DNA from: Neoroseomonas lacus
GTDB taxonomy: Bacteria; Pseudomonadota; Alphaproteobacteria; Acetobacterales; Acetobacteraceae
Length of the DNA stretch: 64,000 bases
Direction of reading: 5' to 3'
Assembly: GCF_014644535.1 (NCBI RefSeq)
Contig: NZ_BMKW01000006.1
Span: 186,001-250,000, forward strand
Shown: in pieces, positions 5,113-46,028 of the stretch
Layout of the letters: each line of letters starts with the position of its first letter
Position numbering within the stretch: position 1 is the stretch's first letter
Notes under the pieces: generated by a model
The model's database searches: none
Seen by the model: the letters and a program-made list of their open reading frames with translations, nothing else
What the model was told of the DNA's origin: nothing
Translations under genes and position numbers: made by a program

Positions 5113-5113
5113 G

Positions 5114-7017: not shown

Positions 7018-7933
7018 GAATCTCCACACACGCTATGTCTCGCGCGGCCGCACGGTCACGGCCGTCGATGGCGTGTCGCTCACCGTGGCGGGCGGCGAGA
7101 CCGTCGGCCTGGTTGGTGAAAGCGGCTGTGGCAAGTCCACGCTGGGCAAGACCATCCTACGGCTGGTCGACCCGGCCGAGGGCAGCATCCGGATCGCCGG
7201 GGAGGAGATCGCGACGCTGCGCCAGGCGGCGCTCGCCCCCTTCCGTCGCCGCATGCAGATGGTCTTCCAGGACCCCTATGGCTCGCTGAACCCGCGCCAG
7301 ACGGTGGCCACGCTACTGGAGACGCCACTGAAGGTGCATGGCATAGGCGGCCGCGCGGAACGTCGGGCGCAGGTGCTGGACATGCTCGCCCGGGTCGGAC
7401 TGCCAGGCGATGCTGCGGAGCGCTACCCGCATGAATTCTCCGGCGGGCAGCGGCAGCGCATCGGCATCGCTCGTGCCCTGGTGCTGAAGCCGCAACTGGT
7501 GATCTGCGACGAGCCGGTCTCGGCGCTGGATCTGTCGATCCAGGCGCAGATCCTGAACCTGCTGGTCGGGCTGAAGCGCGACCTTGGCCTGTCGTATCTG
7601 TTCATCTCGCACGATCTTTCAGTCGTACGCTATTTCGCCGATCGCGTGATGGTCATGTACCTCGGTCGCATCGTCGAAAGCGCCGACCATGTCACGCTTT
7701 GGCGCAACCCCCAGCACCCCTATTCGCGGGCGCTGCTGTCGGCCGTGCCGGTCGCGGATCCCACCCGCGCCCGCGCACCGATGACGATGCGCGGAGAGCT
7801 GGGTTCAGCGCCCACCACCGGATGCCGCTTCCGATCGCGCTGCCCGGTCGCGATTGACCGCTGCAGCGTCGAGGACCCGGTGCTGAGGGATGTGGGTGCG
7901 CAGCACCGTGTGGCGTGCCACAGGCCGGGTTAG
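6998..7933 (+). CDS. Dpp/Opp-type ABC transporter ATP-binding protein (DppF-like)
   Basis: A 311-residue ATPase with Walker [13 protein letters not shown], the DppF-type phrase VFQDPYGSLNPR, signature FSGGQRQRIGIARAL and Walker B LVICDEPVSALD. The C-terminal cysteine motif CRFRSRCPVA is present. The start is internal to the end of the DppD-like gene (20-base overlap), as often seen in such operons. It is the last gene of the operon; a bidirectional hairpin follows at 7939-7968. A possible binding protein partner is the orphan at 24553-26142. Confidence 0.92.
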   Translation: MSLLTVENLHTRYVSRGRTVTAVDGVSLTVAGGETVGLVGESGCGKSTLGKTILRLVDPAEGSIRIAGEEIATLRQAALAPFRRRMQMVFQDPYGSLNPRQTVATLLETPLKVHGIGGRAERRAQVLDMLARVGLPGDAAERYPHEFSGGQRQRIGIARALVLKPQLVICDEPVSALDLSIQAQILNLLVGLKRDLGLSYLFISHDLSVVRYFADRVMVMYLGRIVESADHVTLWRNPQHPYSRALLSAVPVADPTRARAPMTMRGELGSAPTTGCRFRSRCPVAIDRCSVEDPVLRDVGAQHRVACHRPG

Positions 7934-12033: not shown

Positions 12034-12807
12034 TCAGGTTCCCGAACGCGCCGGCGGAGGTGGATGCCTGCCAGTCATCCAACCGCCGTCGACCGCGATA
12101 ACCTCGCCGGAAACAAAGGACGCATCGGCCGACGCCAGGAAGGCGATCACGGCCGCGACCTCGTCCGGTTGCCCGGCGCGCCGCAGCGGCGTCGGGTCCA
12201 GCATCGCGCTCTGGTAGTAGCGGTCGTGATGCAGGCGGTCGCGTGTCATCGCCGTCTCGATGAGTCCGGGGGCGACACCGTTGACCAGGATGCCCTCTGG
12301 CGCGAGATCGGCTGCGAGCTGCCGCGTCAGCTGCGCAACGCCCGCCTTCGCAACCGCGTAGGGCGTTGAACCCGGGTAGCCCACCAAGCCGAAGACGGAG
12401 GCCACATTCACGATCCGTCCGCCTGGCCGTGTCAGATGCGGCATCGCGGCGCGGGTCATCTTCAGGACCGCCATCAGGTTCGTGCCAATAATGCGCTCAA
12501 GCAGCGCGTCGTCGCATTCGGCGAGCGGCCGCGACCCGCTGATGCCCGCATTGTTGACCAGGATGTCCAGGCGCCCGAAGCGTTCGCGTGCCGCCTCGAC
12601 CACGCGTTCCGCCGCGCCCGGTGTCGCCAGGTCGAGCTGAAGCGCCGTCGCGCCGAGGTCCTGCGCCCTTGCCGTCACCTCCTCCGCCACATCCACGAGC
12701 AGCACGGCGGCACCCTCCCGCGAGAGCCGCGCCGCGGTCGCCGCGCCGATGCCCCGTGCCGCGCCCGTCACGATCGCCACCTGTCCGGCGAAGCGGTCCG
12801 CGTTCAT
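12034..12807 (-). CDS. Short-chain dehydrogenase/reductase (SDR, FabG-like)
   Basis: A 257-residue SDR with TGAARGIG at residues 14-21, NNAGISG near 90, and a catalytic Ser and YAVAK near 155. The C-terminus extends into a proline-rich tail (RHPPPPARSGT) beyond the usual SDR end. Its start overlaps the LivF stop (ATGA), so it is the last clear gene of the long operon that begins with hyuA at 22093. It probably oxidises or reduces an intermediate of the imported compound. Confidence 0.9.
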   Translation of the reverse strand: MNADRFAGQVAIVTGAARGIGAATAARLSREGAAVLLVDVAEEVTARAQDLGATALQLDLATPGAAERVVEAARERFGRLDILVNNAGISGSRPLAECDDALLERIIGTNLMAVLKMTRAAMPHLTRPGGRIVNVASVFGLVGYPGSTPYAVAKAGVAQLTRQLAADLAPEGILVNGVAPGLIETAMTRDRLHHDRYYQSAMLDPTPLRRAGQPDEVAAVIAFLASADASFVSGEVIAVDGGWMTGRHPPPPARSGT

Positions 12808-13511
12808 GCATCCTCCAAGGTCAGGTGGCGGCGGACGACGTCGGTGGCCGCGCCGAGCGCCGCCGTGTCGCCGGCCCAGACGATGTGGCCTTCGTCGATC
12901 ATGACATGGCGATCGGCTACGGCGCGGCAGACCTCGAGGCTCTGTTCGACCAGCAGCATCGGCAGACCATGCGCCTTCAGCTCCTTCAACAGCACCACGA
13001 GCCGCTCGACGATGACCGGCGCCAGGCCTTCCGTCGGCTCGTCGAGCAACAGCAGCCTCGGCCCCGGCATCAGCGCCCGGGCGATGGCGAGCATCTGCTG
13101 CTCGCCACCCGAGAGTTTGCCGCCCGGCGTGCGGCGTCGCGCGGCGAGGGCCGGGAACATCGTCATCGCCGAGTCGAAGGTCCAGGCCGAGCCGCGCCGG
13201 ACGGCGAGCCGCAGGTTCTCTTCAACGGTCAGCGCTGCAAAGACCCCGCGATGCTCCGGCACCAGCGACAGGCCGAGCCGCGCCACCGCATGCGATGGCA
13301 TGCCCCGCAGGTCGCGCCCGTCAAAGGCGATGCGGCCCGCGGTGGGCGGCAACAATCCCATGATACAGCGCATGGTGGTGGTCTTGCCGGCGCCATTGCG
13401 GCCGAGCAATGCGACGGTCTCGCCGGCAGCGACCGACAAGGTGACCCCGTGTAGCACGCGACTCTTGCCATAGCCGGCTTCGATGGCGTCGAGTTCCAGC
13501 AGCGCGCTCAC
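12804..13511 (-). CDS. livF: Branched-chain-amino-acid-type ABC transporter ATP-binding protein (LivF-like)
   Basis: A 235-residue ATPase with Walker A GRNGAGKTTTMR, the LivF phrase LVPEHRGVFAALTVEENL, signature LSGGEQQMLAIARAL and Walker B LLLLDEPTEGLAP. It overlaps both neighbours by four bases. LivF pairs with LivG to drive LivHM permeases. In this operon the cargo is probably the hydantoinase substrate rather than leucine, because such importers also carry amides, urea and aromatic acids. Confidence 0.93.
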   Translation of the reverse strand: MSALLELDAIEAGYGKSRVLHGVTLSVAAGETVALLGRNGAGKTTTMRCIMGLLPPTAGRIAFDGRDLRGMPSHAVARLGLSLVPEHRGVFAALTVEENLRLAVRRGSAWTFDSAMTMFPALAARRRTPGGKLSGGEQQMLAIARALMPGPRLLLLDEPTEGLAPVIVERLVVLLKELKAHGLPMLLVEQSLEVCRAVADRHVMIDEGHIVWAGDTAALGAATDVVRRHLTLEDA

Positions 13512-14251
13512 AGCCCCGATCCCAGATAGGCTTCGCGCACGGCGGCGTCACTTCGGATCATCGCGGGCGTCCCTTCGGCGATCGGCCTTCCCTGTGCCAA
13601 CACGGTGATGCGATCCGAGATGTCCAGCACGACGCGCATGTTGTGTTCGATCAGCACCACCGTGCGTGCGGGTACCAGGCGGTGAATCAGTTCCTTGGTG
13701 CGATGGACATCATCGATGCCCATGCCGGCGAGCGGCTCATCGAGGAAGATGATGCGCGGATCGGCGGCGAGGGCCATGCCGATCTCGAGTGCTCGCTGCG
13801 CCCCATGCGACAGGTCGCCGGCACGCCGGGTCGCGCGCGCCGCAAGGCCGACTTGCTCCAACAGGGCCTCCACCGTCTCGCGCATCGGTCGATGCGCGCG
13901 CCAGAACACCCACGGCTCACCGCCTGCGACAGCCTGGGCTGCCATCCGCAGATTCTCGGTGACCGTGAGGTCGGCGAAGATGTTGGTAACCTGGAAAGAG
14001 CGCGCCATGCCGAGATGCACGCGACGATGAGCCGGCATTTGCGTCACATCATGTCCGGCCAGCACGATGCGTCCCTCGCTAGGCCGCAGCCGACCGGTCA
14101 GCACGTTGAACAGAGTGGTCTTGCCTGCACCGTTGGGGCCGATCACGGTATGCAGCGAGCCGGCCGCGACGGCGAGCGTCACTTCGGACAAGGCGCGGAA
14201 ATCACCGAAGCGAACGCCAATGCCACGCGCGTCGAGCAGCGCCTCAGCCAT
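13508..14251 (-). CDS. livG: Branched-chain-amino-acid-type ABC transporter ATP-binding protein (LivG-like)
   Basis: A 247-residue ATPase with Walker A GPNGAGKTTLFNVLTG, the LivG phrase GMARSFQVTNIFADLTV, a slightly altered signature LSHGAQRALEIGMALA, and Walker B IIFLDEPLAGM. The signature reads SHGAQ, the variant common in LivG proteins. The ATG at 14251 overlaps the LivM end and gives the usual length; the upstream extension is out of family. Confidence 0.93.
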   Translation of the reverse strand: MAEALLDARGIGVRFGDFRALSEVTLAVAAGSLHTVIGPNGAGKTTLFNVLTGRLRPSEGRIVLAGHDVTQMPAHRRVHLGMARSFQVTNIFADLTVTENLRMAAQAVAGGEPWVFWRAHRPMRETVEALLEQVGLAARATRRAGDLSHGAQRALEIGMALAADPRIIFLDEPLAGMGIDDVHRTKELIHRLVPARTVVLIEHNMRVVLDISDRITVLAQGRPIAEGTPAMIRSDAAVREAYLGSGL

Positions 14252-15209
14252 GTCGCCGATCCCGTGCCCAGCGCAGCGCCGCCGCAATGCCGCCCCACAG
14301 GCCACCACGCAGGAACAGGACGATCGCGATCAGCAGGAAACCGATCAGCATCAGCCAGCGTGGCCAGAGCGCCGAGAGCACATCCGCCATCACGATGTAG
14401 AAGCCGGCCCCGAAAAAAGCGGCAACCGGCGCACCTGTTCCGCCGATGATCGCCATGATCACCAGTCGCTCGCTCATCTCGAGTTCGATGACGTTGGGCG
14501 GTGCGAAACCGAGGAAAATGGTGTGCATGCCGCCCGCCAATCCCGCCAACAGCCCGGCCAGGGCGAAGGCCGCGGTCTTGAAGCGCCGGATGTCGTAACC
14601 CAGCGCCTCGGCTCGCGCTTCGTTCTGCCGGATGGCGCGCAGCACTGAGCCGAAGGGCGAATCCGCCACGCGCCGAACGAACAGATAGGCGAGGAAGGCC
14701 AGGGTGGCGAGCAGCGCGTAGACCGCGCCGGAATTGGCCAGGGCGCCGAAACCGGCGATCAGCGGCGGCCGCGGCACGCCGGTGAGCCCGTTCTCGCCGC
14801 CGGTCACATCCCGCAGGGCGAGCATCGCGAAATAGCCCATCTGCGCAAAGGCCAGCGTCAGCATGACGAAATAGACACCCTGTCGCCGCACCGCCAGCAG
14901 GCCGAGCAGTGCCGCGCCGAGACAGGCGACGACCGACCCGGCCGCGATCGCGGGCAGCGTGCCGACCCCGTGCTCCTTCAGCAGCACGGCCGAGACATAG
15001 GCGCCGATGCCGAAGAACAGGCCCTGGCCGAAGGACAGCAGACCGACCTGCCCGAGCAGGAAGATGCAGGACAGCGCGGCCACGGAAAACACCACCACTT
15101 CGGAGGCCAGCGTCACCGATGGCAGGATGACGGGCAGCGCGACGAGGGCGATGACCACGCCGATCGCCCCGATGCCGAGCGGGCGGACGCCCTCGGTCTC
15201 GACGCTCAT
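14244..15209 (-). CDS. livM: Branched-chain-amino-acid-type ABC transporter permease (LivM-like)
   Basis: A 321-residue polytopic membrane protein with about eight to ten hydrophobic segments. The LivM signatures GQVGLLSFGQGLFFGIGAY and RAIRQNEARAEALGYD (cytoplasmic loop) are present. It overlaps LivH upstream and LivG downstream. With LivH it forms the transport channel. Confidence 0.93.
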   Translation of the reverse strand: MSVETEGVRPLGIGAIGVVIALVALPVILPSVTLASEVVVFSVAALSCIFLLGQVGLLSFGQGLFFGIGAYVSAVLLKEHGVGTLPAIAAGSVVACLGAALLGLLAVRRQGVYFVMLTLAFAQMGYFAMLALRDVTGGENGLTGVPRPPLIAGFGALANSGAVYALLATLAFLAYLFVRRVADSPFGSVLRAIRQNEARAEALGYDIRRFKTAAFALAGLLAGLAGGMHTIFLGFAPPNVIELEMSERLVIMAIIGGTGAPVAAFFGAGFYIVMADVLSALWPRWLMLIGFLLIAIVLFLRGGLWGGIAAALRWARDRRHG

Positions 15210-16069
15210 GCCCGCCCCATCAGGCCGGTCGGGCGCACCAGCAGCACCAGCGCCATGGCGCCGTAGATCATCAGTCGCGCGCCTTCCGGCCAGAGGCTGC
15301 TCATCACGCTCTGCACCACGCCGATCAACAGGCCGCCGAGAAGTGCGCCGGTGAAGGAGCCGATGCCACCGACCACAACGACGACGAAGGCGATGCCGAG
15401 CGCCTCCAGCCCCATGAAGGGTTCAACGCCGCGCAACGGCGCCGCGAGCGCGCCGGCAAGCCCGGCCAGCGCACCGCCGAGTGCGAAGGCGGCGAGAAAG
15501 ACGCGCTGCACATTGATGCCGAGCAGGCCGACCATCTCGGCACTCTCCGAGCCGGCGCGCAGGATCGCGCCGAACCGTGTCCGTTCCAACGCGACCCACA
15601 GCAACAGCGCGACCAGCGCCGAGACGGCGACGACCGCCAGCCGATAGGCCGGATAGACGAAGGGGCCGAGAAAGACGATGCCGCCGAGGAAGTCGGGCAC
15701 CGGCACGTTCTTGGCGAGGGGATCGAAGAGCAGGATCACACTCTCCTGCACGATCAGCGCGACGGCGAAGGTGATGAGGATCTGCGCCTCATGCGCCATG
15801 GCATAGGTGTGCCGCAGCAGCAGCCGCTCGGCGACGACGGCGAGCGCCGCCGCCACCAGCGGGCCGAACAGCAGGGCCCAAAGCATCGAGCCCGTCAGCA
15901 CGCTCACCACATAGGCCGTATAGGCCGCCACGAGATAGAGCGCGCCATGGGCGAAGTTCACGAAGCGCATCAGGCCGAAGATCATCGACAACCCGACCGA
16001 CAGCAGGAAGTAGATCATCCCGATGCCGATGCCGTTGAGCAACTGGAAGACGAGGACCTGGCCTGACAT
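15206..16069 (-). CDS. livH: Branched-chain-amino-acid-type ABC transporter permease (LivH-like)
   Basis: A 287-residue membrane protein starting with LLNGIGIGMIYFLLSVGLS and FGLMRFVNFAHGALYLVAAY, the LivH hallmark. The cytoplasmic loop is RAGSESAEMVGLLGINVQRV. It lies 15 bases after the binding protein gene and overlaps LivM by four bases. Confidence 0.93.
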   Translation of the reverse strand: MSGQVLVFQLLNGIGIGMIYFLLSVGLSMIFGLMRFVNFAHGALYLVAAYTAYVVSVLTGSMLWALLFGPLVAAALAVVAERLLLRHTYAMAHEAQILITFAVALIVQESVILLFDPLAKNVPVPDFLGGIVFLGPFVYPAYRLAVVAVSALVALLLWVALERTRFGAILRAGSESAEMVGLLGINVQRVFLAAFALGGALAGLAGALAAPLRGVEPFMGLEALGIAFVVVVVGGIGSFTGALLGGLLIGVVQSVMSSLWPEGARLMIYGAMALVLLVRPTGLMGRA

Positions 16070-16084
16070 CGACGTGCTCCGTCG

Positions 16085-17272
16085 TCAGCTCATCCGGCAG
16101 CCGGCCTGTTCCGGTGTCTGGAACGCCTTCGTGCCGGCGAGAACCTCGGCGAAGTCGGCCGGGTCGCGCATCGCGCTGCGCGCCTTGCCGAGCATCAGGT
16201 AGTAGTCCTTGATCACCTGGTGGTCGCCGGCGCGGATCACTTCGGTGCCGGTCGGCCCCTGATAGGACAGGCCTTCGAGCGCGCCGATCACCGCCGGCAC
16301 ATCAGCGGTGCCGGCCTTGTTCAGCCCTTCCACCATCATCTGCGCGACCGCCCAGCCGCAGGCCTGCAGGTAGTTGGTCTGTGCATTCGTCTTGGCGCGC
16401 ACGACCTCCTGCAGCACGCGATTGCCCGGGGCGTCGACGCCATGCCAGTAGTTCGCGCCGAAATAGACACCCTCGCAGATGTCCGGCCCCCAGGCCTGGA
16501 ACTGGTCGAGCCCGGTCGACCACGGCACCACGATCTTCACATTGCGCTTCATGCCGAAGGAGACGGCCTGGCGCACCACGTCGAGCGTCTGGTTGCCGAA
16601 GTTGCAGACCGCGAGCACGTCGGGCTGCGCCGCGATGGCGGCGGTGATGTAGCCTGAATACTCGCGCTCGCTCAGCGCGTGATAGGAATTGCCGACATGC
16701 TGCCTGCCGGTCTCCTGCAGCACGGTCTTGAGGTTGGACAGCAGGCTGTCACCGAAGACGTACTGGCCGGTGATGGTGTACCAGCGCTTGGCATTGGGGT
16801 TGCGCTCGATGAAGGGACGCAGCGTCGCATTCACCGCGGTGTAGCTCGCACCCGGCCAGCGGAAGGAGGCGCGGTTGCATTCCGAGCCTGTCGCCTCGTC
16901 GGCGCCGGCCATGTGGATGTAGACGCCGCCGCGGGCGTGCACTTCCTTCGCCACCGGCAGGGCGATGGAGGACAGCGTGCAGCCGACGATATGCTTGACG
17001 CCCTGGCCCATGGCTTCCTGCACGCGGCGCACCGCGCGACCCGGGTCGCCCTGGTCATCCAACAGCGTGTAGTTGATGCGCTTGCCGGCGCCGGTGCCGT
17101 AATGCTCGAAGGCCCATTGCGTGCCCTTGTTGAGCAGGTCGCCCACATTGGCGAAGGTCCCCGACAGCGAATAGACGCCGGCAATCTGAATCTGATCACC
17201 TTGTGCGCGGGCGAGGGACGGCGCTGCCAGAAGCCCGGCGCCCGCCCCGAACAATGTCCTGCGTTGCAGCAT
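16085..17272 (-). CDS. livK: Periplasmic binding protein of a branched-chain-type ABC transporter (LivK-like)
   Basis: A 395-residue type I periplasmic-binding-fold protein (ANF/PBP1 receptor family). The signal peptide RRTLFGAGAGLLAAPSLARA has an RR start and an A-x-A cut near residue 23. The mature part opens with IQIAGVYSLSGTFANVGD and contains INYTLLDDQGDPGRAVRRVQ. The ATG at 17272 follows GGGAG. It captures the substrate for LivHMGF and stands between the permeases and the flavin oxidoreductase. Confidence 0.92.
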   Translation of the reverse strand: MLQRRTLFGAGAGLLAAPSLARAQGDQIQIAGVYSLSGTFANVGDLLNKGTQWAFEHYGTGAGKRINYTLLDDQGDPGRAVRRVQEAMGQGVKHIVGCTLSSIALPVAKEVHARGGVYIHMAGADEATGSECNRASFRWPGASYTAVNATLRPFIERNPNAKRWYTITGQYVFGDSLLSNLKTVLQETGRQHVGNSYHALSEREYSGYITAAIAAQPDVLAVCNFGNQTLDVVRQAVSFGMKRNVKIVVPWSTGLDQFQAWGPDICEGVYFGANYWHGVDAPGNRVLQEVVRAKTNAQTNYLQACGWAVAQMMVEGLNKAGTADVPAVIGALEGLSYQGPTGTEVIRAGDHQVIKDYYLMLGKARSAMRDPADFAEVLAGTKAFQTPEQAGCRMS

Positions 17273-17288
17273 CGATGCACTCTCCCTG

Positions 17289-18437
17289 TTATGTCGCGGG
17301 GGCGCGCGCTGCGCGGGCCCGCTTTTCCAGCCACCAGCCCCAGGATGGCGGCCATCCGTCGAACCCCGGATCAGCGCCGAGCGCCTGCGCCGCATGCAGC
17401 ACCCAGTGCGGATTGAACAGCGCCTCGCGTCCGATGGCGATCAGGTCGGCGCGGCCCTCGCGAATCACGGCCTCGGCATAGTCCGGCGTGCGGATCAGGC
17501 CGACCGCGATGGTCGGCATGCCGGCCTCGCGCCGGATGCGTTCCGCGAAGGGCACCTGGTAGCCTTCCTGGCGGCGGATCATTCTTGTCGTCGTGCGTTC
17601 GCCAAGACCACCCGAGGAGCAGTCGACCAGGTCGACACCGCGCGCCTTCAAGGCGATGGCGGCGGCGACGCTGTCCTCGATCGTCCAGCCGCCCGGTTGG
17701 TCGTCGATGCATGACAGGCGCACCGAGAGTGGCAGATCCGACGGCCAGCCGGCCCGCACCGCTTCCGTCACGGCCAGGAGGAAACGCTGGCGACCGTCGA
17801 GATCGCCGCCCCAGCGATCCTCGCGCCTGTTGGCGATGGGTGAGAGGAAAGAATGGATCAGATAGCCGTGCGCGGCATGGATCTCGAGAAAGCGGAAGCC
17901 CGCCCGCGCGGCCCGCAGCGTCGCGCCGTGATAGGCGTCGATCGTGCGCGCGATCGCGTCCTCGTCCATCGCCAGGGGTTCGTGCCAGCCCGGATTGGCC
18001 GGCAGCGCGCTGGCCGCGAGCGTTGTCCATGGTGGTGTGCCGCGGGCGGCATCCGTGGCGGTGAGTGGATCATAGCCTTCCCATGGACGCCCGACGCTGC
18101 CTTTGCGGCCGGCATGGATGAGCTGCGTCGCCGGCACGGCGCCAGCGGCCTCGACCATCGCGGCGATGGGGCGCAGCGCGTCCTGCTGGGCGTCGTTCCA
18201 CAGGCCGAGATCATGCCATGTCACCCGGCCTTCCGGTGAGACCGCGAGCGCCTCGGTCATCACCGTGCCGGCGCCGCCAATGGCCTGGCGGCCGTAATGC
18301 TGGTCATGGAAGGCGGTGGGCAGGCCATCGGCCCCCGCCATGTACTGCTGCATCGGCGAGATCATGACGCGGTTGCGCATCGTCACCCCACGGAGGGTGA
18401 GCGGGCTGAACAGCACACTGTCCGGGGTGCCGGTCAT
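17289..18437 (-). CDS. Old yellow enzyme family NADH:flavin oxidoreductase
   Basis: A 382-residue FMN-dependent TIM-barrel reductase of the YqjM/NamA branch. The substrate-binding pair of histidines is in EIHAAHGYLIHSFLSP (near residue 184), and the phosphate-binding end is present (IAIGREALFNPHW). The cysteine that tunes the flavin in YqjM-type enzymes (SPMCMY) is replaced here by glutamine (SPMQQY, about residue 30), which should shift redox behaviour. These enzymes reduce activated C=C bonds, for example of maleimide-like or enone compounds. It is placed three bases after hyuB, suggesting it acts in the same pathway. Confidence 0.92.
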   Translation of the reverse strand: MTGTPDSVLFSPLTLRGVTMRNRVMISPMQQYMAGADGLPTAFHDQHYGRQAIGGAGTVMTEALAVSPEGRVTWHDLGLWNDAQQDALRPIAAMVEAAGAVPATQLIHAGRKGSVGRPWEGYDPLTATDAARGTPPWTTLAASALPANPGWHEPLAMDEDAIARTIDAYHGATLRAARAGFRFLEIHAAHGYLIHSFLSPIANRREDRWGGDLDGRQRFLLAVTEAVRAGWPSDLPLSVRLSCIDDQPGGWTIEDSVAAAIALKARGVDLVDCSSGGLGERTTTRMIRRQEGYQVPFAERIRREAGMPTIAVGLIRTPDYAEAVIREGRADLIAIGREALFNPHWVLHAAQALGADPGFDGWPPSWGWWLEKRARAARAPAT

Positions 18438-18440
18438 CGT

Positions 18441-20084
18441 TCAGCCCGCGCCGGCCGGTACTGTCACCAGGCCATCCTCGATGTCGCGCGCGAGGGCGGC
18501 CGGATCGCGCCGCGCGGCCTCGCCATATCCAGCGCCACCGCCGAGCGCCAGGGTTACGATATCGCCCTTGCGCAGTTCCATCTGATCCTTCGAGCGGGTC
18601 GGAATCCGCTGACCGTCGCGCTCGATCTCGCACCAGCCGGTTGCGCCCGTACCGCCGCCGAACAACCCTTCGGGGGCGCGGCGGAAGCGGTCGGAATAGA
18701 GTGCTAGCCTTGTGCCGTCCTCCAGGATCTCGATGCGGCGGATGAAGCCGGCACCGCCGCGATGCTGTCCGACGCCGGCGCTGTCCGGCCGCAGCGCGTA
18801 GTCGGTCACGCGAAAGAAGGAGAAATCCTGGTCCATTGCCTCCACCGGCGTGTTCGAGCAGTTGGAGAGTGGATTGTCGACGCCATCGCAGCCATCGCTC
18901 TCCGCCGTGGCGCCGAATCCGCCACCATAGACCTCGAGGTAGACCGACCAGCCCTGCGACCGGAGATGGGAGAGGCAAAATGAAGTGGTGGTGTCGAAGC
19001 CGCAGGCGATGACGCGTTCCGGCACCGCCTGCGCGAGCGCCTTCATCACCGCGTTCCAGGCGCGCGAACAGGCCTCCATGCGGGCGCGCACCGGCGCGGG
19101 ATGGCGCGGATTGAGCAGGGAGCCCAGCGGTGCCTCGACGTCGATCGGGCGCATCGCGCCGTCATTGAACGGGATGTCGGGGCTCGTCAGCGCCGCCTTG
19201 ATGGCCGAGACCGTCGCCGAGACGGTGGAGGCGAAGGGCGCATTGAGGTTGGTGCGTACCTGCGGCGACGTGCCGCTGAAATCGACCGAGATGCTCTCGC
19301 CCCTGACCGTGACGGTGGCGCGGACCGGCAACGGCGCATCGCTGATGCCGTCGTCATCCACTGCATCCTCGCCGACATAGACGCCGTCGGGGACGGCTGC
19401 GATGGCCGTGCGCATCCGTGTCTCGGAATAATCCTGCAGCGCGGCCATGGTTGCGCGCAGCTTGGCTACCCCGTAGCGCTTCGCCAATTCCTGCATGCGC
19501 AGCACGCCGACGGCATTGGCCGCCATCTGCGCGTCGAAGTCGCCCATCGTCTGTTGCGGCACGCGGACATTGGCGCGCAGCAGTCGCTCGAAGCCGCCAC
19601 CGTGCCAGTCCCGCTCAAGGTCGATCTTCATCGGCGGGATGATCAGCCCTTCGGAATAGACGTCCACCGCGGCCGGATTGAGCCCGGGGCTGCCGCCACC
19701 CAGGTCGAGGTGATGCGCAACCGAGGCAGCGAAGCCGATCACCTCCCCATCGACATGGACCGGGTGGAAGATGAAGACGTCCTGTAGGTGCTGGCCGCCT
19801 GAATAAGGGTCGTTGATGAACAACACCTCGCCCGGCTTCAGCGTCTGCGGCGGGAACATCGCGGCGCAGGGGCCGAAGATGCGCCCGATGGTGCCGAGCT
19901 GCATCGGGATCAGCTCGGCCTGCGCGACCGTCTGGCCGCGGGCGTCGAGCAGCGCCGCCGAGCCGTCGCGCGCCTCGCGCAGGATGGTGGAATAGGCCGA
20001 GCGGATCAGCTTCGCGCCCATCTCCCGCGCGGCGGCGATCAGCGACTGGCTGAGGATGGCGTATTCGACGGGATCAAGCTGCAT
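18441..20084 (-). CDS. hyuB: Hydantoinase/oxoprolinase B-subunit family protein (HyuB), second copy
   Basis: A full 547-residue HyuB. Visible blocks are LREARDGSAALLD, FINDPYSGGQHLQDVFIF, VAHHLDLGGGSPGLN, VDFSGTSPQVRTNLNAPFA and a C-terminal glycine-rich GDIVTLALGGGAGYG. The ATG at 20084 abuts the hyuA stop; a GTG three bases upstream is an equally possible start. A GGAGG site precedes both. It forms the second subunit of a cyclic-amide hydrolase with the gene upstream. Compared with the first copy it belongs to a distinct transport operon (Liv-type instead of Dpp-type). Confidence 0.93.
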   Translation of the reverse strand: MQLDPVEYAILSQSLIAAAREMGAKLIRSAYSTILREARDGSAALLDARGQTVAQAELIPMQLGTIGRIFGPCAAMFPPQTLKPGEVLFINDPYSGGQHLQDVFIFHPVHVDGEVIGFAASVAHHLDLGGGSPGLNPAAVDVYSEGLIIPPMKIDLERDWHGGGFERLLRANVRVPQQTMGDFDAQMAANAVGVLRMQELAKRYGVAKLRATMAALQDYSETRMRTAIAAVPDGVYVGEDAVDDDGISDAPLPVRATVTVRGESISVDFSGTSPQVRTNLNAPFASTVSATVSAIKAALTSPDIPFNDGAMRPIDVEAPLGSLLNPRHPAPVRARMEACSRAWNAVMKALAQAVPERVIACGFDTTTSFCLSHLRSQGWSVYLEVYGGGFGATAESDGCDGVDNPLSNCSNTPVEAMDQDFSFFRVTDYALRPDSAGVGQHRGGAGFIRRIEILEDGTRLALYSDRFRRAPEGLFGGGTGATGWCEIERDGQRIPTRSKDQMELRKGDIVTLALGGGAGYGEAARRDPAALARDIEDGLVTVPAGAG

Positions 20085-22093
20085 CACGCATCCCTCCGCA
20101 GGATCAGGTTACCTGCCTCGTCGCGTCTGGCAATCCAGCCTTCCGGCACCCAGGCCGTGGAGGAATAGCCCTCGATCAGCGCCGGGCCGGTGACGGCATC
20201 GGAAAAGCGCGCAGCGGGCACCAACCGTGCCTCGAGCGTGCGGCCATCGGCGGCGCGGATCGGCGCCGTGCCGGTGCGATCCGCGCCATCGCGTTCCTTC
20301 ACCTCTGGCAGCGTGTCGAGCCGCCGCCGCACGCTGTAGCGGAGCGAGACGATCTCCGACTTGCGGCCCGGTTCACCACCATGGAGATAGACCCGGCGAT
20401 GCGCCGCGGTGAAGCGTTCAGCCAGGGCGCCTTCGGTAAGGCCTTTCAGCGCGGCTTCCTCAATCGCCACCGGGATCTCGAATGCCTGGCCGACGAAACG
20501 CATATCGGCCTCGAGGCCATATTCCAGCGCGCCGTCGAGGCCGAGGCCACGGAATTCATCCGACGCCGTGGCCCGCAGCCTGGCCTCGGCGGCGCGCAAC
20601 GCATCGGGCGCGGCATCGTCGAGCGCCATGCGCCGCGTGACGCCATAGACCTTCACGTAATCCGCCGAGAGCAGGCCGAGCGCGGAAATCACGCCCGGAT
20701 TGGGCGGCACCAGGATCTCGGCGATCCCGAGCTCCTCGGCGATCTCGGCGGCGAGCAGTGGGCCCGCGCCGCCGAAGGGCACCAGTGCATAGTCGCGCGG
20801 ATCGCGCCCGCGTTCGGTAGAGACCAGCTGGATGGCGCGAACGATGTTCGCCACCGCAAGGCGGATCGCCGCCGCGGCCGCCCCGCGCACATCAGTGCCG
20901 AGCCGCGCCGCGACTTCCTCGAAGGCGCGATGCGCGGCATCGGCATCGAGGCTCATGGTGCCGCCGAGGAAGCTCTCGGGCCGGATGGTGCCGCGCACGA
21001 CATGGGCATCGGTGACCGTCGGCAGCGTGCCGCCACGGCGGTAGCAGGCCGGGCCGGGGTCGGCGCCGGCGCTGCGCGGGCCAACCCGGAGCATGCCGCC
21101 TTCGTCGATCCACACCAGGCTGCCGCCGCCCGCTCCGACCGAGACGATGTCGAGCACCGGCGTGCGGATCGGTAGCCCGTCCACTTCGGTCTCTGGTGCT
21201 AGCGCGGCCTCGCCCTTCTGCACCAGCGAGACGTCCGTGGAGGTGCCGCCCATGTCGAAGGTGATGAGGTCGCCACGACCCGAACGACCGGCCTGCCGGA
21301 TGGCGCCGACCACGCCGGCGGCCGGGCCGCTGAACAGCGCCGTGATGGCGTTGCGCCGCATGGCGACAGCCGGCAGGCGTCCGCCATTGGACTGCATGAC
21401 GCTGAACCGCCCCGTGAAGCCCGCCTGCGCGAGCCGCTCCCCGAAACGGTCGAGATAGCCATCGATGACCGGCTGCACATAGGCCGAGAGCACCGCGGTC
21501 GAGGCGCGCTCGTACTCGCGGAACTCCGGTGCGATGGCGTGGCTCGGCGCGATGCGGATATCGGGCAGCGCCGCGCCGATCAATTCGGCCAGCCGCATTT
21601 CGTGCAGCGGCGATGCGTAGGAGGACAGCAGGCAGATCGCCACGGCCGCGTAACCGCCGGCGGCGAGGGCGGGGATCAGCATCCGCGCGACCTCGGCCTC
21701 ATCGAGCGGCAGCACGATGTTGCCGCGCGCGTCGAGGCGCTCCGTCACCTCGAAGCAATCGCGTCGGCGCACCGGGGGCTCCGGCTTGGCGTAACGCAGG
21801 TCGTAGATGCTGCGGCGATCGTGGCGCTGCATGAAGAGGATGTCGCGAAAGCCGCGGGTGGTGACGAAGGCCACCTTCGCGCCGCGGCGTTCGAGAATGG
21901 CGTTGGTCGCGACGGTCGATCCATGCACCAGGTCGGTGACCGCGCCAGATGGGACGTTGCCGGCGATGAGCGCGTTGAACGCACCGATGTCGGGGCTGCG
22001 CGGCGTGCTCGGCACTTTCGCGACGACGGCGCGTCCGCCATCCAGCGCGACCAGATCGGTGAAGGTTCCGCCTACCTCGATGCCGACCCGCAT
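20084..22093 (-). CDS. hyuA: Hydantoinase/oxoprolinase A-subunit family protein (HyuA), second copy
   Basis: A 669-residue HyuA with the N-terminal GIEVGGTFTDLVALDGG block and the central ITFDMGGTSTDVSLVQ. The family phrase SVGAGGGSLVW is also present. The ATG at 22093 follows GGAAGGA. It opens a minus-strand operon of about ten kilobases (hyuA, hyuB, OYE, LivKHMGF, SDR). The leader contains a TGATTTTCA element (22113-22121) shared with the divergent XRE-cupin gene, which likely controls it. Confidence 0.93.
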   Translation of the reverse strand: MRVGIEVGGTFTDLVALDGGRAVVAKVPSTPRSPDIGAFNALIAGNVPSGAVTDLVHGSTVATNAILERRGAKVAFVTTRGFRDILFMQRHDRRSIYDLRYAKPEPPVRRRDCFEVTERLDARGNIVLPLDEAEVARMLIPALAAGGYAAVAICLLSSYASPLHEMRLAELIGAALPDIRIAPSHAIAPEFREYERASTAVLSAYVQPVIDGYLDRFGERLAQAGFTGRFSVMQSNGGRLPAVAMRRNAITALFSGPAAGVVGAIRQAGRSGRGDLITFDMGGTSTDVSLVQKGEAALAPETEVDGLPIRTPVLDIVSVGAGGGSLVWIDEGGMLRVGPRSAGADPGPACYRRGGTLPTVTDAHVVRGTIRPESFLGGTMSLDADAAHRAFEEVAARLGTDVRGAAAAAIRLAVANIVRAIQLVSTERGRDPRDYALVPFGGAGPLLAAEIAEELGIAEILVPPNPGVISALGLLSADYVKVYGVTRRMALDDAAPDALRAAEARLRATASDEFRGLGLDGALEYGLEADMRFVGQAFEIPVAIEEAALKGLTEGALAERFTAAHRRVYLHGGEPGRKSEIVSLRYSVRRRLDTLPEVKERDGADRTGTAPIRAADGRTLEARLVPAARFSDAVTGPALIEGYSSTAWVPEGWIARRDEAGNLILRRDA

Positions 22094-22112
22094 GGTTTTC
22101 CTTCCGTGCCCT

Positions 22113-22185
22113 TGATTTTCAGCTTTATGGTAGTCACACCCGTCGCATCGGAGGCAATAGTGAAAATCAGAGGTCTGATTTTTCA
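22113..22185. promoter_or_regulatory. TGAAAATCA-type dyads between hyuA and the XRE-cupin gene
   Basis: TGATTTTCA lies at 22113-22121, TGAAAATCAGA at 22161-22171, and TCTGATTTTTCA at 22174-22185. The last two form an 11-bp inverted repeat with one bulged base and a GG centre, ending directly at the XRE-cupin ATG. The first copy is 20 bases from the hyuA start. The window's only XRE gene is adjacent. This arrangement suggests an operator controlling both arms, and the RNA hairpin would also hide the AGAGG ribosome site. Confidence 0.6.
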
Positions 22186-22785
22186 ATGAGCGAGTTGGCG
22201 CCGACCGATCCAGCCGAGGATTCCGGGCCGTTGGCCCATATGGGCCAACGGCTGCGCGACTTGAGGCGCCGGCGGGCGCTGACGCTGCAGGCGCTGTCCG
22301 ATGAGAGCGGCGTGTCGATCGGTATGCTCAGCCAGATGGAGCGTGGTGTCTCGACGCCATCCATCCGCACGCTGCAGCGCGTGGCCGAGGCACTGAAGGT
22401 GCCGATCAATTGGTTCTTTTCCGACGGCACGTCGCCCACGGGCGCACCGCCCTGGGTCCTGCGCCGCGCGCATCGCCGCACCCTGTCGCTCGGTACCAAT
22501 GGCGTGACGAAGGAACTGCTCGCTCCGGCGGGCGATGGGGCGATCGAGTTGCTCTACGTCACCATCGAACCCGGCGGCTCGTCGGGGCCGTCGCCCTATA
22601 GTCATGTCGGCGAGGATGCGGGCATGGTGATCGAAGGCAGCATGAGGCTCGAGGTCAATGGCGAGACGTGCCTGCTCGGTGCGGGCGACGCCTTTCGCTT
22701 CAAGAGCACGCTGCCGCATCGCTTCGAGAACCCGGGCGAGGCGCGCGCAGTCGTGTTGTGGGCCGTGACGCCGCCCTTCTACTGA
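22186..22785 (+). CDS. XRE-family regulator with C-terminal cupin domain
   Basis: A 199-residue regulator. The helix-turn-helix spans about residues 19-75 (LRDLRRRRALTLQALSDESG ... SQMERGVSTPS). The C-terminal cupin is at about 115-195 (SHVGEDAGMVIEGSMRLEV ... PHRFENPGE). This class (SutR/PuuR-like) senses a small ligand in the cupin barrel and often controls neighbouring catabolic genes. The start at 22186 lies at the edge of an inverted repeat; an internal ATG at 22240, just before the HTH, is an alternative start. It diverges from the hyu operon and probably controls both arms. Confidence 0.92.
   Translation: MSELAPTDPAEDSGPLAHMGQRLRDLRRRRALTLQALSDESGVSIGMLSQMERGVSTPSIRTLQRVAEALKVPINWFFSDGTSPTGAPPWVLRRAHRRTLSLGTNGVTKELLAPAGDGAIELLYVTIEPGGSSGPSPYSHVGEDAGMVIEGSMRLEVNGETCLLGAGDAFRFKSTLPHRFENPGEARAVVLWAVTPPFY
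22228..22251. repeat. Perfect 24-base palindrome inside the XRE-cupin coding region
   Basis: The half-site CCGTTGGCCCAT at 22228-22239 is followed directly by its exact reverse complement at 22240-22251, with no mismatch. It encodes residues 15-22 just before the helix-turn-helix and is centred on a CATATG that contains the alternative start codon. It may be an internal operator or an RNA stem; no function is proven. Confidence 0.8.
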
Positions 22786-22900
22786 CGAGGGAGTCTGCTT
22801 TGACAGCGCTCCGGAACGCGCCGTACCGTCCTGGAGCGGCCTTGGCGCAAGAGCGAGGCGTTCACGGAGGACTGCCGGAAGATTGTCGGGAGGCAAGGCC

Positions 22901-23674
22901 ATGTCTACTCGGATGGACGATCGATCGCAATTCGCCGGGCGCGTCGGCCTTGTGACCGGTGCTGCATCGGGCCTGGGCCGCAGCGTTGCGGTGGCGCTTG
23001 CCGACGCCGGCGCGCGTCTCGTCCTTTTCGATCGTGATGCTGACGGATTGCACGCGACGGCGACGCAGTGTCCGGGGTCTGTCGCCGTCGCCGGGGACGT
23101 CTCGCAGGGCAGTGACATGGCACGCGCGGCGGAGGCGCTTGATGCGCTCGGGCCGGTTTCCCTGCTGGTCACGGCCGCCGGCATTCTCGGGCCGACGGCG
23201 CCCCTGGCCGATGTCACCGAACAGGCGTGGGACCGGCTGTTCGCCGTCAACGTCAAGGGAAGCTGGTTGGCGCTGAAGCACGTCCTGCCGCGCATGATTG
23301 CGGCAGGTGGGGGCTCCGTGGTGACGCTGGCGTCGGGAGCGGGACTTGCCGGCAATGCCACCTTTCCCGCCTATTCCGCCAGCAAGGGAGCCGTGGTGTT
23401 GATGACGCGCAGCGTCGCCGCCAGCCATACCGCGCAGGGCATCCGGGCCAACACCGTCTGTCCCGGGCCGATCGAGACGCCGATGCTGCGCGAGACCTTT
23501 GCTGCCGCCGGCGAGGGTGCCGCGGAGCGCGAGGTCATCTTCCGCACGCGCAATCCGATGGGCCGCTTCGGCACGCCCGACGAAGTCACTGCCGCGGTGC
23601 TGTTCCTGCTCAGCGATGCGGCATCCTACATCAACGGCGTCGCGCTGCCCGTGGATGGCGGGCGCCTCGCATGA
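22901..23674 (+). CDS. Short-chain dehydrogenase/reductase (SDR, FabG-like)
   Basis: A 257-residue SDR with TGAASGLG near residue 23, TAAGILG near 95 in place of the usual NNAG, and YSASK near 160. The C-terminus VALPVDGGRLA is standard. I chose the ATG at 22901, which follows GGGAGG, over an in-frame ATG 18 bases upstream. It lies 115 bases after the XRE gene and 31 bases before the CE4 hydrolase, in the plus-strand arm of the cluster. The cofactor preference is not clear. Confidence 0.9.
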   Translation: MSTRMDDRSQFAGRVGLVTGAASGLGRSVAVALADAGARLVLFDRDADGLHATATQCPGSVAVAGDVSQGSDMARAAEALDALGPVSLLVTAAGILGPTAPLADVTEQAWDRLFAVNVKGSWLALKHVLPRMIAAGGGSVVTLASGAGLAGNATFPAYSASKGAVVLMTRSVAASHTAQGIRANTVCPGPIETPMLRETFAAAGEGAAEREVIFRTRNPMGRFGTPDEVTAAVLFLLSDAASYINGVALPVDGGRLA

Positions 23675-23705
23675 CACTTCCGCCGCCTGCGAAGGGGACC
23701 CATGA

Positions 23706-24527
23706 ATGACCGGATCAAGCGTGAACTGGCCCGGCGGTGCGCGCATCGCCGTCACCCTGACCTTCGACTTCGACGCCGAGACGCTGTGGCTGTCGCGCGA
23801 TCCGGCGAATGCGCAGCGCCCGGGCACGCTTAGCCAGGGCGTCTATGGCGCACGGATCGGCGTGCCGAAGATCCTCGAGACCCTGAAGGAAGCCGGCGTG
23901 CCGGCCACGTTCTTCATCCCCGGATGGACCGTTGAGAACCATGCCGATCGGGCGGAGATGGTGCTCAAGGCCGGTCATGAGATCGGCCACCATTCCTACT
24001 CCCATGCCTGGATCGACCCCGCCTTTCCGGAGCAGGAGGTGGAGGAGATGGAGCGCGGTCTCGACGCGCTGAAGCGCGTGCTGGGCGTGGTGCCGAAGGG
24101 CTACCGTTCGCCGGCCGGCGAGACCAGCGACAACACCATCCGGCTGCTGGCCAAGCACGGCTTCCTCTACGACAGCTCGATGATGGCGGAGATCAATCCG
24201 TATCGCATCACGGCGCCGGACGGCTCCTCGATCATCGAACTGCCCTGGCATTGGAGCCTCGACGACGCGCCGTTCCTGCTCTTCTCGATCAAGACGCCGC
24301 GGCCGATCTTCACCAACAGCCACATCCGCGAGGTCTGGCAGGACGAGTTCCGCGAGATCCATCGCTGGGGCGGGTACTACAACCTGGTGATGCATCCGCA
24401 GTTCACCGGACGTCCGAGCCGCATCGCCCTGCTGCGCGAGATGATCGCCTTCATGCGTGGCTTCGAGGGTGTGTGGTTCGCCACCTGCAGCCAGGTCGCC
24501 GAGGCCTGGGCCACGTCGCAGTCCTGA
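23706..24527 (+). CDS. CE4/NodB-fold hydrolase, possibly a cyclic imidase rather than a polysaccharide deacetylase
   Basis: A 273-residue NodB-homology protein. The metal and catalytic residues are visible: TFDFD at residues 19-23 and H96-x3-H100 in GHHSYSH, followed by YRSPAGE near 138 and a C-terminal VMHPQFTG. There is no signal peptide or transmembrane segment, so it is predicted to be cytoplasmic, which argues against a cell-wall role. The PgdA/PuuE-like branch of this superfamily includes allantoinase and cyclic imide hydrolases. The neighbouring hyuAB genes make cyclic imide, ureide or amide hydrolysis the most likely role. Exact substrate unknown. Confidence 0.85.
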   Translation: MTGSSVNWPGGARIAVTLTFDFDAETLWLSRDPANAQRPGTLSQGVYGARIGVPKILETLKEAGVPATFFIPGWTVENHADRAEMVLKAGHEIGHHSYSHAWIDPAFPEQEVEEMERGLDALKRVLGVVPKGYRSPAGETSDNTIRLLAKHGFLYDSSMMAEINPYRITAPDGSSIIELPWHWSLDDAPFLLFSIKTPRPIFTNSHIREVWQDEFREIHRWGGYYNLVMHPQFTGRPSRIALLREMIAFMRGFEGVWFATCSQVAEAWATSQS

Positions 24528-24552
24528 CCGATCCAGAAGGAGAGCACCGCCG

Positions 24553-26142
24553 ATGCTGACCCGCAGACAAGGCCTCGCCGCCGCCGGCGCCGCGATGGCG
24601 CTGCCCCGGCTCGCCCTCGCGCAGTCGCGTGAGCGGCCGTTCCGCTTCGTGGTCAATGTGGGGCTGCAGAATCTCGATCCGATCAGCAGCCCTTCCTTCA
24701 TCACGCGCAACTTCGCCTATCTGGTCTTCGACACGCTGGTCTCGATGGACAGCCGCGGCGAGTACCGACCGCAGATGCTGCAAGGATGGGAGACCAGCGC
24801 CGACGGCCTGACCTGGACATTCCGGTTGAGGCCAGGTCTTGCGTTCCACGACGGGGCGCCGGTCACCGCCGAGGATGTGGTGGCCTCGCTGCGCCGCTGG
24901 GGCAACCGCGATTCCATCGGCCGGCGCCTGATGGCCGCGACGGCCGAATTGACGACGTCTGGCACCGATGGCTTCGTCCTGAAGCTGTCGCGCCCGTATG
25001 GCGGCGTCATCGACGCCTTGGGCAAGCCATCGGTCCATGTTCCCTTCATCATGCCGGCACGCATCGCGTCGGCAACGCCGCCGGCGCAGCAGGTGCGCGA
25101 GATCGTCGGCTCCGGCCCCTTCGTCTTCCTGCGCGACGAATGGCTGCCGGGGGACCGCACGTTCTTTCGCCGCAACCAGCATTACGTGCCGCGCGACGAA
25201 CCGGCCGATGGGCTCGCCGGCGGCAAGGTGGCGAAGGTCGATCGCGTCGAGATGATCACGATGCCCGACATCGCGCTGCGCGCCGCATCGTTGCAGCAGG
25301 GCGAAGTGGACTATCTGGAATATGCGCCGGTCGACAACCTGCCGCGCATGCGCGGCGACCGAAACATCGTCATCTCGCAGGCAAGTGGCCGGGCGGAGAT
25401 GATGTACGCCGTTAGCATCAACCATGACCTGCCGCCCTTCAACAATGTGTTGATGCGTCGTGCCTTGCAGCAATGCCTTGACCGCAACGAGATCCTGGCC
25501 GGTACCGGCTTCGGCGAACTCGGCCGGCCCGATTGCACGGCGATGTTCATGTGCGGCACGACCTACACGAGCGAACTTGGCAGCGACGCGATCAAGCAGC
25601 CGAGCCTCGATCGGGCGAAAGCGCTGCTGCGGGAGGCCGGTTACAACAACGAGCGTGTCGTGCTGATGCATCCGCTCGATTCGGCGCTGCTGAACCCCTT
25701 CGGCCTGGTGTTGATCGACCGCATGAAGCGGGCGGGGTTCAATCTGGATATTCAGGGTTCGGACTGGTCCTCGATCGCGCAGCGCTGGGTGCAGCGCCAG
25801 CCGCTCGACCGCGGCGGCTGGAACGTGGTTCCCGTTGTCTACACCGGCTTCGACATGGCCGATCCGCTGTCGAATCTCGGCGTCGGCTTCAACTGCACCG
25901 GCAACCAGCCCTGGGGCTACTGCGAAGCGGAGATGACGCCGGTCATCGAACGCTTCGAGGCGGAAGGCGATCCCGCCAAGCGGCGCGAGCTCGCGGCGCA
26001 GCTGAATCGGCTGGCCATCGAGCGCGCGACCTTCCCGATTGCCGGACAGTTCCGGGCACCGGCCGCCTGGCGCAAGGAATTGCGTGGCGTGATCGACTTC
26101 GGCTTCCCGGTTGTCTGGAACATCGAGCGGGGTGGGAACTGA
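24553..26142 (+). CDS. Family 5 extracellular solute-binding protein (DppA/OppA-like), without its own permease
   Basis: A 529-residue SBP_bac_5 protein. The signal peptide MLTRRQGLAAAGAAMALPRL ends near A-L-A-Q (residue 24). The mature part has NLDPISSPSF, LAFHDGAPVTAEDVV (the family signature) and VGSGPFVF. The ATG at 24553 follows AAGGAGAG. It is the last gene of the plus-strand arm; a dihydroxyacetone kinase gene converges on it. No Dpp-type permease is adjacent, while a Dpp core without binding protein sits at 4126-7933, so the two may work together. Confidence 0.92.
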   Translation: MLTRRQGLAAAGAAMALPRLALAQSRERPFRFVVNVGLQNLDPISSPSFITRNFAYLVFDTLVSMDSRGEYRPQMLQGWETSADGLTWTFRLRPGLAFHDGAPVTAEDVVASLRRWGNRDSIGRRLMAATAELTTSGTDGFVLKLSRPYGGVIDALGKPSVHVPFIMPARIASATPPAQQVREIVGSGPFVFLRDEWLPGDRTFFRRNQHYVPRDEPADGLAGGKVAKVDRVEMITMPDIALRAASLQQGEVDYLEYAPVDNLPRMRGDRNIVISQASGRAEMMYAVSINHDLPPFNNVLMRRALQQCLDRNEILAGTGFGELGRPDCTAMFMCGTTYTSELGSDAIKQPSLDRAKALLREAGYNNERVVLMHPLDSALLNPFGLVLIDRMKRAGFNLDIQGSDWSSIAQRWVQRQPLDRGGWNVVPVVYTGFDMADPLSNLGVGFNCTGNQPWGYCEAEMTPVIERFEAEGDPAKRRELAAQLNRLAIERATFPIAGQFRAPAAWRKELRGVIDFGFPVVWNIERGGN

Positions 26143-37884: not shown

Positions 37885-37948
37885 GACCAGCCACTGGCGC
37901 CGGGCAGGGCTTCATGCTGACCTTGTCTATGCGAATAGGAGAGACGTG

Positions 37949-41602: not shown

Positions 41603-41607
41603 CGTCA

Positions 41608-42612: not shown

Positions 42613-42986
42613 GGCTCGGTCTCCCGCGGTGCCGGTCTGGTCTCGACCAGCCTCCATGCCAGCATCGCGCGTTTGCGCGGGGCAGGCGATATCATTGGCA
42701 ACAGTGGTGGCGGTCAAGGCGAGCGCCGAGGTCGCGCCAACGAACGCATCCGAACGGTTGCGACGAAGGTTCGCGACCCGCCGCGGCGCCAAAGACGATG
42801 ATGCAATGCCCTGACCCGCAAATAGGGGATAGGCGACCTCACCAGCTTGTGGCTACCGTTCCCACCGGGAGACGATGCGGCTTCAATAGGGCGGGCGCCA
42901 GGCAGCACAAGATGGCTGTCTTCCTCCCGCTTGGTGACCGACGCCACGGCGCATGCCGCGAGGCGGGGATCAAGGAGGCTCGAACA
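42613..42986. other. Divergent intergenic region, no gene seen
   Basis: This 374-base gap separates the Ldh2 gene (minus) from the amino-acid importer operon (plus). Frames across it give arginine- and alanine-rich noise. A short imperfect dyad around CGAACGG...AGGTTCG (near 42750) is the only symmetry noticed. Promoters for both directions must lie here but no clear -35/-10 pair was identified. Confidence 0.4.
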
Positions 42987-43862: not shown

Positions 43863-43880
43863 CGGCGCGGGCGCGGCACG

Positions 43881-44546: not shown

Positions 44547-44552
44547 CCGAGG

Positions 44553-46017: not shown

Positions 46018-46028
46018 AGGACGCGAGC

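Follow-up and report, generated by a model that had tools for sequence, protein, structure and literature searches.

What pathway is encoded where genes for two types of hydrolase stand head to head with those for an ene-reductase, two short-chain dehydrogenases (SDRs) and importer components? The question is raised by positions 12034-26142 of a 64,000-nucleotide stretch of Neoroseomonas lacus DNA (contig NZ_BMKW01000006.1, positions 186,001 to 250,000), the whole of which we call the window. An earlier annotation, here the sequence-only reading, proposed a single cluster in which an unsaturated cyclic imide or amide is imported, reduced by an old yellow enzyme (OYE) and then opened by a CE4/NodB hydrolase and/or the HyuAB pair. 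Every gene that it named is present and open on the strand given, and the arms are composed as described, with nine genes on the minus strand and four on the plus strand. The theme of a cyclic amide or imide is upheld by the predicted small-molecule type of the CE4 protein, the SDR and importer neighbours of its orthologues, the placing of HyuAB in a lactamase family and the recurrence of the set in another family; the single-cluster logic, the placing of the regulator and the order of steps fared less well. The cluster consists of two modules that are usually separate, module A (the minus arm with the XRE-cupin gene) and module B (SDR2-CE4-SBP5). On balance we favour the reading that the joining of these modules made an island for the catabolism of N-heterocyclic lactams and cyclic imides, and we consider it the likelier case that both act in one pathway. 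The features are as follows.

12034-12807, minus strand: SDR1, short-chain dehydrogenase at the end of the minus arm (Pfam/NCBIfam), grouping with SDRs found directly upstream of CE4 elsewhere
12804-13511, minus strand: LivF, ABC ATPase
13508-14251, minus strand: LivG, ABC ATPase
14244-15209, minus strand: LivM permease
15206-16069, minus strand: LivH permease
16085-17272, minus strand: LivK, family 6 binding protein, closest solved relative 4MAA
17289-18437, minus strand: OYE, FMN ene-reductase of the XenA/YqjM kind, PMQQY variant
18441-20084, minus strand: HyuB, ATP-dependent lactamase family (Pfam/NCBIfam)
20084-22093, minus strand: HyuA, ATP-dependent lactamase family (Pfam/NCBIfam), phosphate motif ExGGTFTD with Glu
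22161-22185, no strand: operator-like inverted repeat in the hyuA/XRE-cupin gap
22186-22785, plus strand: XRE-cupin regulator of module A, top NCBIfam model PuuR, under its cut-off
about 22913-23674, plus strand: SDR2, short-chain dehydrogenase of the module B core
23706-24527, plus strand: CE4/NodB hydrolase, candidate cyclic imide hydrolase, no signal peptide seen
24553-26142, plus strand: SBP5, family 5 solute-binding protein, part of the module B core in most Acetobacteraceae loci read

Gene starts were picked by codon usage, with which the apparent long overlaps of OYE with LivK and of CE4 with SBP5 vanish. By inspection, LivK and SBP5 carry twin-arginine-like signals at their N-termini; that of the CE4 protein shows no signal peptide, as the sequence-only reading had said, and so lacks the mark of a secreted polysaccharide deacetylase.

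CE4 orthologues (69-100% identity; the next match is at 48%) are present in 33 of 299 genomes of the family, the best eight candidates per genome being scored, and in seven of 35 genomes of the genus, the carriers including N. soli (G016), N. alba (G001) and N. nitratireducens (G029). Relatives occur also in named genomes of Rhizobiales, Bordetella and others, among the best 80 of 205 relatives. The core of module B elsewhere reads SDR2-SDR1-CE4 on one strand. Its neighbour is SBP5 at most Acetobacteraceae loci, and at many other loci Liv genes adjoin it. Neighbours were counted within 8 kb of CE4 at 82 distinct orthologue loci and at 19 control loci of CE4 paralogues, the control stretches being partly shorter; nine of the controls are lower CE4 matches (45-48%), of which ten of 15 loci were read. 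At unannotated loci genes were called by a codon-score caller, and partner labels are best BLAST matches rather than proven orthologues. SDR1-type genes lie near CE4 at 59 orthologue loci against three paralogue loci, SDR2-type genes at 59 against four and SBP5-type genes at 45 against five. Other partners are confined to the orthologue loci, with 0/19 among the paralogues: IclR (39/82), LivH (19/82), HyuA (11/82), OYE (4/82) and a penicillin-acylase-type protein with D-succinylase as its closest solved relative (6/82). An amidase-signature protein, a C45 hydrolase or an M20 protein adjoins CE4 at some core loci, and others hold LLM monooxygenases near RutA or a CYP199-like P450 with ferredoxin. 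No substrate can be read from these P450 and LLM neighbours of CE4, nor from the nearest structures of the SDRs.

Departures from the usual setting were also seen. Three loci (L058, L059 and L079) lack the SDR pair and carry the CE4 orthologue within a Liv operon, where the genes for the binding protein and LivH flank it. In Belnapia-like genomes (L066-L069, L071 and L073) genes of the PdxA and PdxJ families, named from L066, come after the core. A more distant relative (54%) on Bosea plasmid pNBC550 (L230) is accompanied by creatininase, arginase, flavin reductase, LLM monooxygenase and an AtzE-type hydrolase, and is another ring-nitrogen setting for this type of CE4.

SDR1 tracks CE4 across the genus, yet here it is placed in the minus arm. 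Elsewhere it stands directly upstream of CE4; its place in the window and in N. soli (85% identity) is the end of the minus arm, after the Liv genes. It is present in six of the 35 genus genomes, all among the seven with CE4 (p 4e-6, phylogeny ignored), the best 76 candidates per genome, and all candidates in the seven CE4 genomes, having been scored. A tree of 154 SDRs places it in a clade of 57 that includes 53 CE4-adjacent SDRs (support 0.979). Within that clade the window and N. soli sequences form a pair (support 1.0) that is sister to 50 others and does not fall among the Neoroseomonas copies. With this placement the idea that SDR1 simply moved from between SDR2 and CE4 is dropped, as displacement and replacement are indistinguishable.

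Module A has its own distribution. HyuA and HyuB match the Pfam models Hydant_A_N, Hydantoinase_A and Hydantoinase_B over nearly their full length and are thus members of the ATP-dependent lactamase family, which includes the caprolactamase CapAB (PMC8453981, PMC6061476). They are not CapAB equivalogs, the top NCBIfam models CapA and CapB scoring 426.5 and 248.2 bits against a cut-off of 1000 each, and their neighbours differ. HyuB at no less than 71% identity is found in 21 of the 299 family genomes, the window's own included (best four candidates per genome scored; the loci of G328, G343 and G093 were left out of the reading), and such HyuAB relatives stand alone in many Acetobacteraceae. 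At 19 HyuB loci (L170-L188, one at 64%; several of the stretches end at a contig edge) a divergent XRE-cupin gene (55-65%) lies beside HyuA in eight cases, a related oxidase is present in 11 and an SBP5-type gene in eight. Genome G108 shows HyuB-oxidase-OYE-LivKHMGF, the contig end cutting at HyuB. The source genome holds 18 HyuB copies, five on the contig of the window (C6), and a second copy (C6:185623-187161) crosses the left edge of the window, where Opp/Dpp-type permease and ATPase genes follow at 3982-7933 on the plus strand.

The phosphate motif of the family is given as DxGGTxTD in PMC8453981. The HyuA of the window, with ExGGTFTD, keeps five of the six fixed positions and has Glu in place of Asp. 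A scan of 24 module A loci gave the Glu form at 22 and no match at two (L187 has in addition a second copy with Asp). All seven CE4-linked HyuA loci have Glu too, and Asp is found in the ten of 17 paralogue loci of the source genome that match the pattern. The window HyuB is 46-47% identical to five CE4-linked HyuBs and 30-38% identical to its 17 paralogues in the same genome.

The OYE carries a His pair, which we take to be catalytic, in common with all 13 sequences compared. It has the sequence PMQQY, as do six others near module A HyuABs (7/7). OYEs near CE4 elsewhere have PMCQY in four of five cases (L164, L167, L209 and the second OYE of G506) and PMAQY in L144. The proposal that the OYE reduces a substrate for CE4 to open thus finds no backing in the window, where the OYE belongs with module A. 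One PMCQY locus (L167) also has its own HyuAB, and the division into PMQQY and PMCQY therefore goes with the HyuAB subfamily no less than with CE4.

Part of the case for a joint function is the recurrence of the combination. N. soli has nearly the same order, with an extra oxidase gene between HyuB and OYE that is absent from the cluster of the window, and since the core of the plus arm is found in dozens of loci as well, the arrangement is not a chance one. CE4 and HyuAB recur together in other lineages with different gene orders and importers. In G506, from another family, about 16 kb hold SDR1 (55%), M20, oxidase (44%), HyuB (60%), HyuA (58%), TRAP, XRE-cupin (52%), OYE (58%) and CE4 (63%), with a second OYE some 2 kb further on and a Liv set beginning about 10 kb past CE4. 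In G382, SDR1-CE4-C45 is divergent from HyuA-HyuB-Liv-SDR2-oxidase. On Agrobacterium plasmid pAt2, SDR1-LivKHMGF-SDR2-amidase-CE4 is followed by importer genes and by genes for a racemase, a TPP enzyme, HyuAB, M20, GabT and succinate-semialdehyde dehydrogenase. A Sulfitobacter plasmid, pDSM14862_b (L209), carries acylase, IclR, importer and SBP5 and then an unbroken CE4-SDR-SDR-OYE. A search for the same gene order had been proposed in the sequence-only reading; among the 38 family loci the arrangement recurs only in N. soli, and the related sets in G506, G382, pAt2 and the Sulfitobacter plasmid have other orders. CE4 and HyuB orthologues share ten genomes against 2.3 expected (n = 299), or seven genera against 1.9 (n = 102).

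Several results weigh against this reading. Firstly, both arms stand together in only two of 38 family loci (the window, L031-L036 and L049-L079), namely the window and N. soli, and the other 36 stretches, most of them of about 10 kb on each side of CE4 and several cut by contig ends, are without the minus arm. N. alba has SDR2-CE4-SBP5 with neither SDR1 nor the minus arm; the loss of SDR1 from the core is therefore not tied to the minus arm. Secondly, all p-values and expected counts given here ignore phylogeny. HyuA lies near CE4 at 11 of 82 loci, where the 18 HyuBs of the source genome would lead one to expect 3.7. At four of the loci (L035, L036, L063, L065 and named copies), however, the tree places the HyuB among ordinary paralogues, so that these HyuABs were discarded as support, and the remaining seven are no significant excess (p 0.08). 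Closeness of HyuA to CE4 is by itself weak evidence. The four OYEs near CE4 compare with 1.2 expected, and two of the four represent one event; moreover, most OYEs beside CE4 are of another type than that of the window. Thirdly, CE4 is scarce when approached from HyuB. Among 20 class-level HyuB loci (best three candidates per genome; 31 matches, one of them the window's own, of which 20 stretches were read), OYE is found at four, XRE-cupin at three and a CE4 orthologue at two (L210 and L211), and the wider flanks of G430, G412 and G382:C2 hold no CE4. Fourthly, amide hydrolases taken together, with HyuAB counted among them, show no enrichment near CE4 orthologues (36/82) over paralogues (8/19), which rules them out as a distinctive trait of CE4 neighbourhoods, and none is present in the cluster beyond HyuAB. 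To these are added the lack of an operator-like site upstream of SDR2, where one was sought, the inactivity on allantoin of HP0310, the closest studied relative of the CE4 protein in the literature consulted, and the lack of any measured activity for the CE4 clade in the literature searched.

The most serious alternative is that two independent operons share a boundary by chance in one Neoroseomonas lineage, one for a lactam or hydantoin (HyuAB, OYE, Liv and XRE-cupin) and an unrelated SDR-CE4-SBP5 operon. Each module is alone at most loci and the join is rare, the excess of HyuA near CE4 loses significance without the ordinary paralogues, the SDR1 pair from the window and N. soli branches deeply and is no recent move within Neoroseomonas, and the sole operator-like site lies between hyuA and the XRE gene. 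We nevertheless consider two unrelated operons unlikely, given the recurrence of CE4 with HyuAB in other lineages, the behaviour of SDR1, and the motif change and HyuB branch that module A shares with the CE4-linked HyuAs.

The regulator bears on the same point. An inverted repeat, TGAAAA-gap-TTTTCA, is visible in eight of ten HyuA/XRE gaps including that of the window (in the others one is degenerate and one gap was called too short). It occurs once in the 6.4-Mb source genome and in 0/100 shuffles of the window. A search for an operator common to the two arms found none, the only site being that in the hyuA/XRE gap; a promoter scan found none, and a terminator scan found no more than in shuffles. 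The XRE-cupin gene belongs with HyuAB, in module A, and the regulator probably controls hyuA and itself through the one palindrome. The control over the cluster that was earlier ascribed to it would hold for the hyuA side and not directly for SDR2: since no site lies upstream of SDR2, control of the plus arm would need read-through across a gap of about 120 bases, and SDR2-CE4-SBP5 may indeed be read through from the XRE gene. The repeat runs up to the start codon annotated for XRE and leaves no room for a ribosome site; the transcript is possibly leaderless, or the start may be an internal Met near 22240.

The closest solved relatives of the CE4 protein, by sequence and by predicted fold, are 3RXZ from Mycobacterium smegmatis and HP0310 from Helicobacter pylori. 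The model (pLDDT 83, with loops 24-32, 38-44 and 193-198 under 50) gives predicted TM-scores of 0.89 to 3RXZ, 0.83 to HP0310 and 0.82 to PuuE; as a group, the top fold matches 3RXZ, HP0310, 3S6O and PuuE/1Z7A lie at 0.82-0.90 and the other structures listed at 0.65 or less. Asp23, His96 and His100 are invariant in 23 of 23 aligned orthologues. We take them to be the Asp-His-His metal triad of CE4, which is consistent with the alignment to solved relatives, and the enzyme is probably metal-dependent. The fold predicted for the protein is a NodB fold of the small-molecule (HP0310/PuuE) type. Fold and triad are as expected of a CE4-type cyclic imide hydrolase such as HxnM or P. putida CIH. The suggested likeness to PuuE allantoinase holds for the modelled fold; the protein is nearer to 3RXZ and HP0310, it retains the metal-site residues whereas PuuE is described as binding no metal in PMC3084791, and with a TIGR03212 (PuuE) score of 96.7 bits against a cut-off of 424.6 we reject its identity as an allantoinase.

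CE4 enzymes are classically deacetylases. The protein could on that ground be a de-N-acylase that removes formyl, acetyl or succinyl groups from an amine or amino acid, the island then degrading N-acyl amines and HyuAB taking a lactam or pyroglutamate-like by-product. ArnD shares the fold (TM 0.65 to the model), and N-acyl groups are also the targets of the acylase, C45 and M20 proteins encoded beside some relatives. We regard this as improbable, as the best predicted fold matches are far better than ArnD and, in the available text of PMC3084791, HP0310 was inactive on the compounds tested, allantoin included, and was judged likelier to be a small-molecule binder. The fungal enzyme HxnM, which has been likened to HP0310, acts by opening an imide.

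A canonical hydantoin-utilisation locus (hyuABC/E type) we reject as very improbable: HyuA and HyuB are present, and M20 and Asp/Glu racemase family genes lie beside relatives on pAt2 and an Aminobacter plasmid, but neither an M20 carbamoylase nor a hydantoin racemase is among the cluster genes (12034-26142), the HyuA is of the Glu-motif type and that route is not known to involve an OYE, SDRs or a CE4 protein.

Our preferred reading, an island for lactams and imides, has a precedent outside bacteria. The lower half of the hxn nicotinate pathway of Aspergillus nidulans (PMC9304392, PMC8478523) comprises the OYE HxnT, the SDR HxnW, the cyclic imide hydrolase HxnM and the amidase HxnN; the SDR makes the imide that HxnM opens, from a ring derived from nicotinate (PMC9304392). 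The bacterial sets have the same enzyme kinds, and HxnM is likened there to HP0310, a top fold match of the CE4 protein. In the cluster the OYE, SDR and imidase kinds are present and the amidase is absent; the Sulfitobacter set has all four if the acylase counts. The fungal pathway differs in that its HxnT was compared with OYE1, whereas the OYE of the window is of the XenA/YqjM kind, and the window has instead an SDR pair, HyuAB, ABC importers and XRE-cupin. A second point of comparison is nmpABCDEF, for N-methylpyrrolidone, in which oxidation of the lactam to the imide is proposed before opening by a hydantoinase-type pair (PMC12866759). Such a pair occurs there with an amino acid oxidase, as in module A of N. 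soli, and the available part of that account does not mention CE4, OYE, an SDR pair or Liv genes. No matching gene cluster was found in the literature searched, which did not extend to most subscription papers; the earlier statement that no such pathway is described stands to that extent, with fungal hxn as a close functional precedent by analogy.

Because the bacterial sets share these enzyme kinds with hxn, we propose an SDR-made imide with opening by CE4 for module B, and an OYE with ATP-driven lactam opening for module A. The substrate would enter through the Liv importer and/or one dependent on SBP5. In module A the OYE would saturate a C=C bond adjacent to the ring carbonyl and HyuAB would open the resulting lactam with ATP to give an amino acid, which in relatives may be processed by an AmaA-like oxidase; no gene for one is present in the window cluster. 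In module B an SDR, presumably NAD-dependent by sequence rules, would oxidise a ring hydroxylactam to a cyclic imide, and the CE4 protein, probably with a metal, would hydrolyse one imide C-N bond. An amide hydrolase encoded outside the cluster would then free ammonia or an amine. More tentatively, the sets may represent a bacterial version of the sequence OYE, SDR, CE4 imidase and amide hydrolase, widely spread and with the importer and last hydrolase swapped between unrelated families; the window would then be the core fused with a Glu-motif HyuAB, one island that opens both lactam and imide forms.

The cluster is a combination of known enzyme kinds, each module conserved and the whole undescribed in the literature searched. 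The 2022 paper on fungal hxn states that prokaryotes have no equivalent of several of its steps. The gene set described here is bacterial, conserved and made up of the same enzyme kinds, and its carriers include cultured strains (Neoroseomonas soli LMG 31231 and Sulfitobacter indolifex DSM 14862), in which the substrates of the CE4 clade and of the Glu-motif HyuAB subfamily are directly testable. The automatic label 'polysaccharide deacetylase' on these CE4 genes would be corrected.

Elsewhere in the window, at 37850-48448, lie genes possibly concerned with nitrogen compounds: an LLM monooxygenase (37850-39322), a molybdenum hydroxylase large subunit (39302-41611), an Ldh_2 dehydrogenase (41608-42792), an ABC permease (43881-44546) and two DAO-type oxidases (46029-48448).

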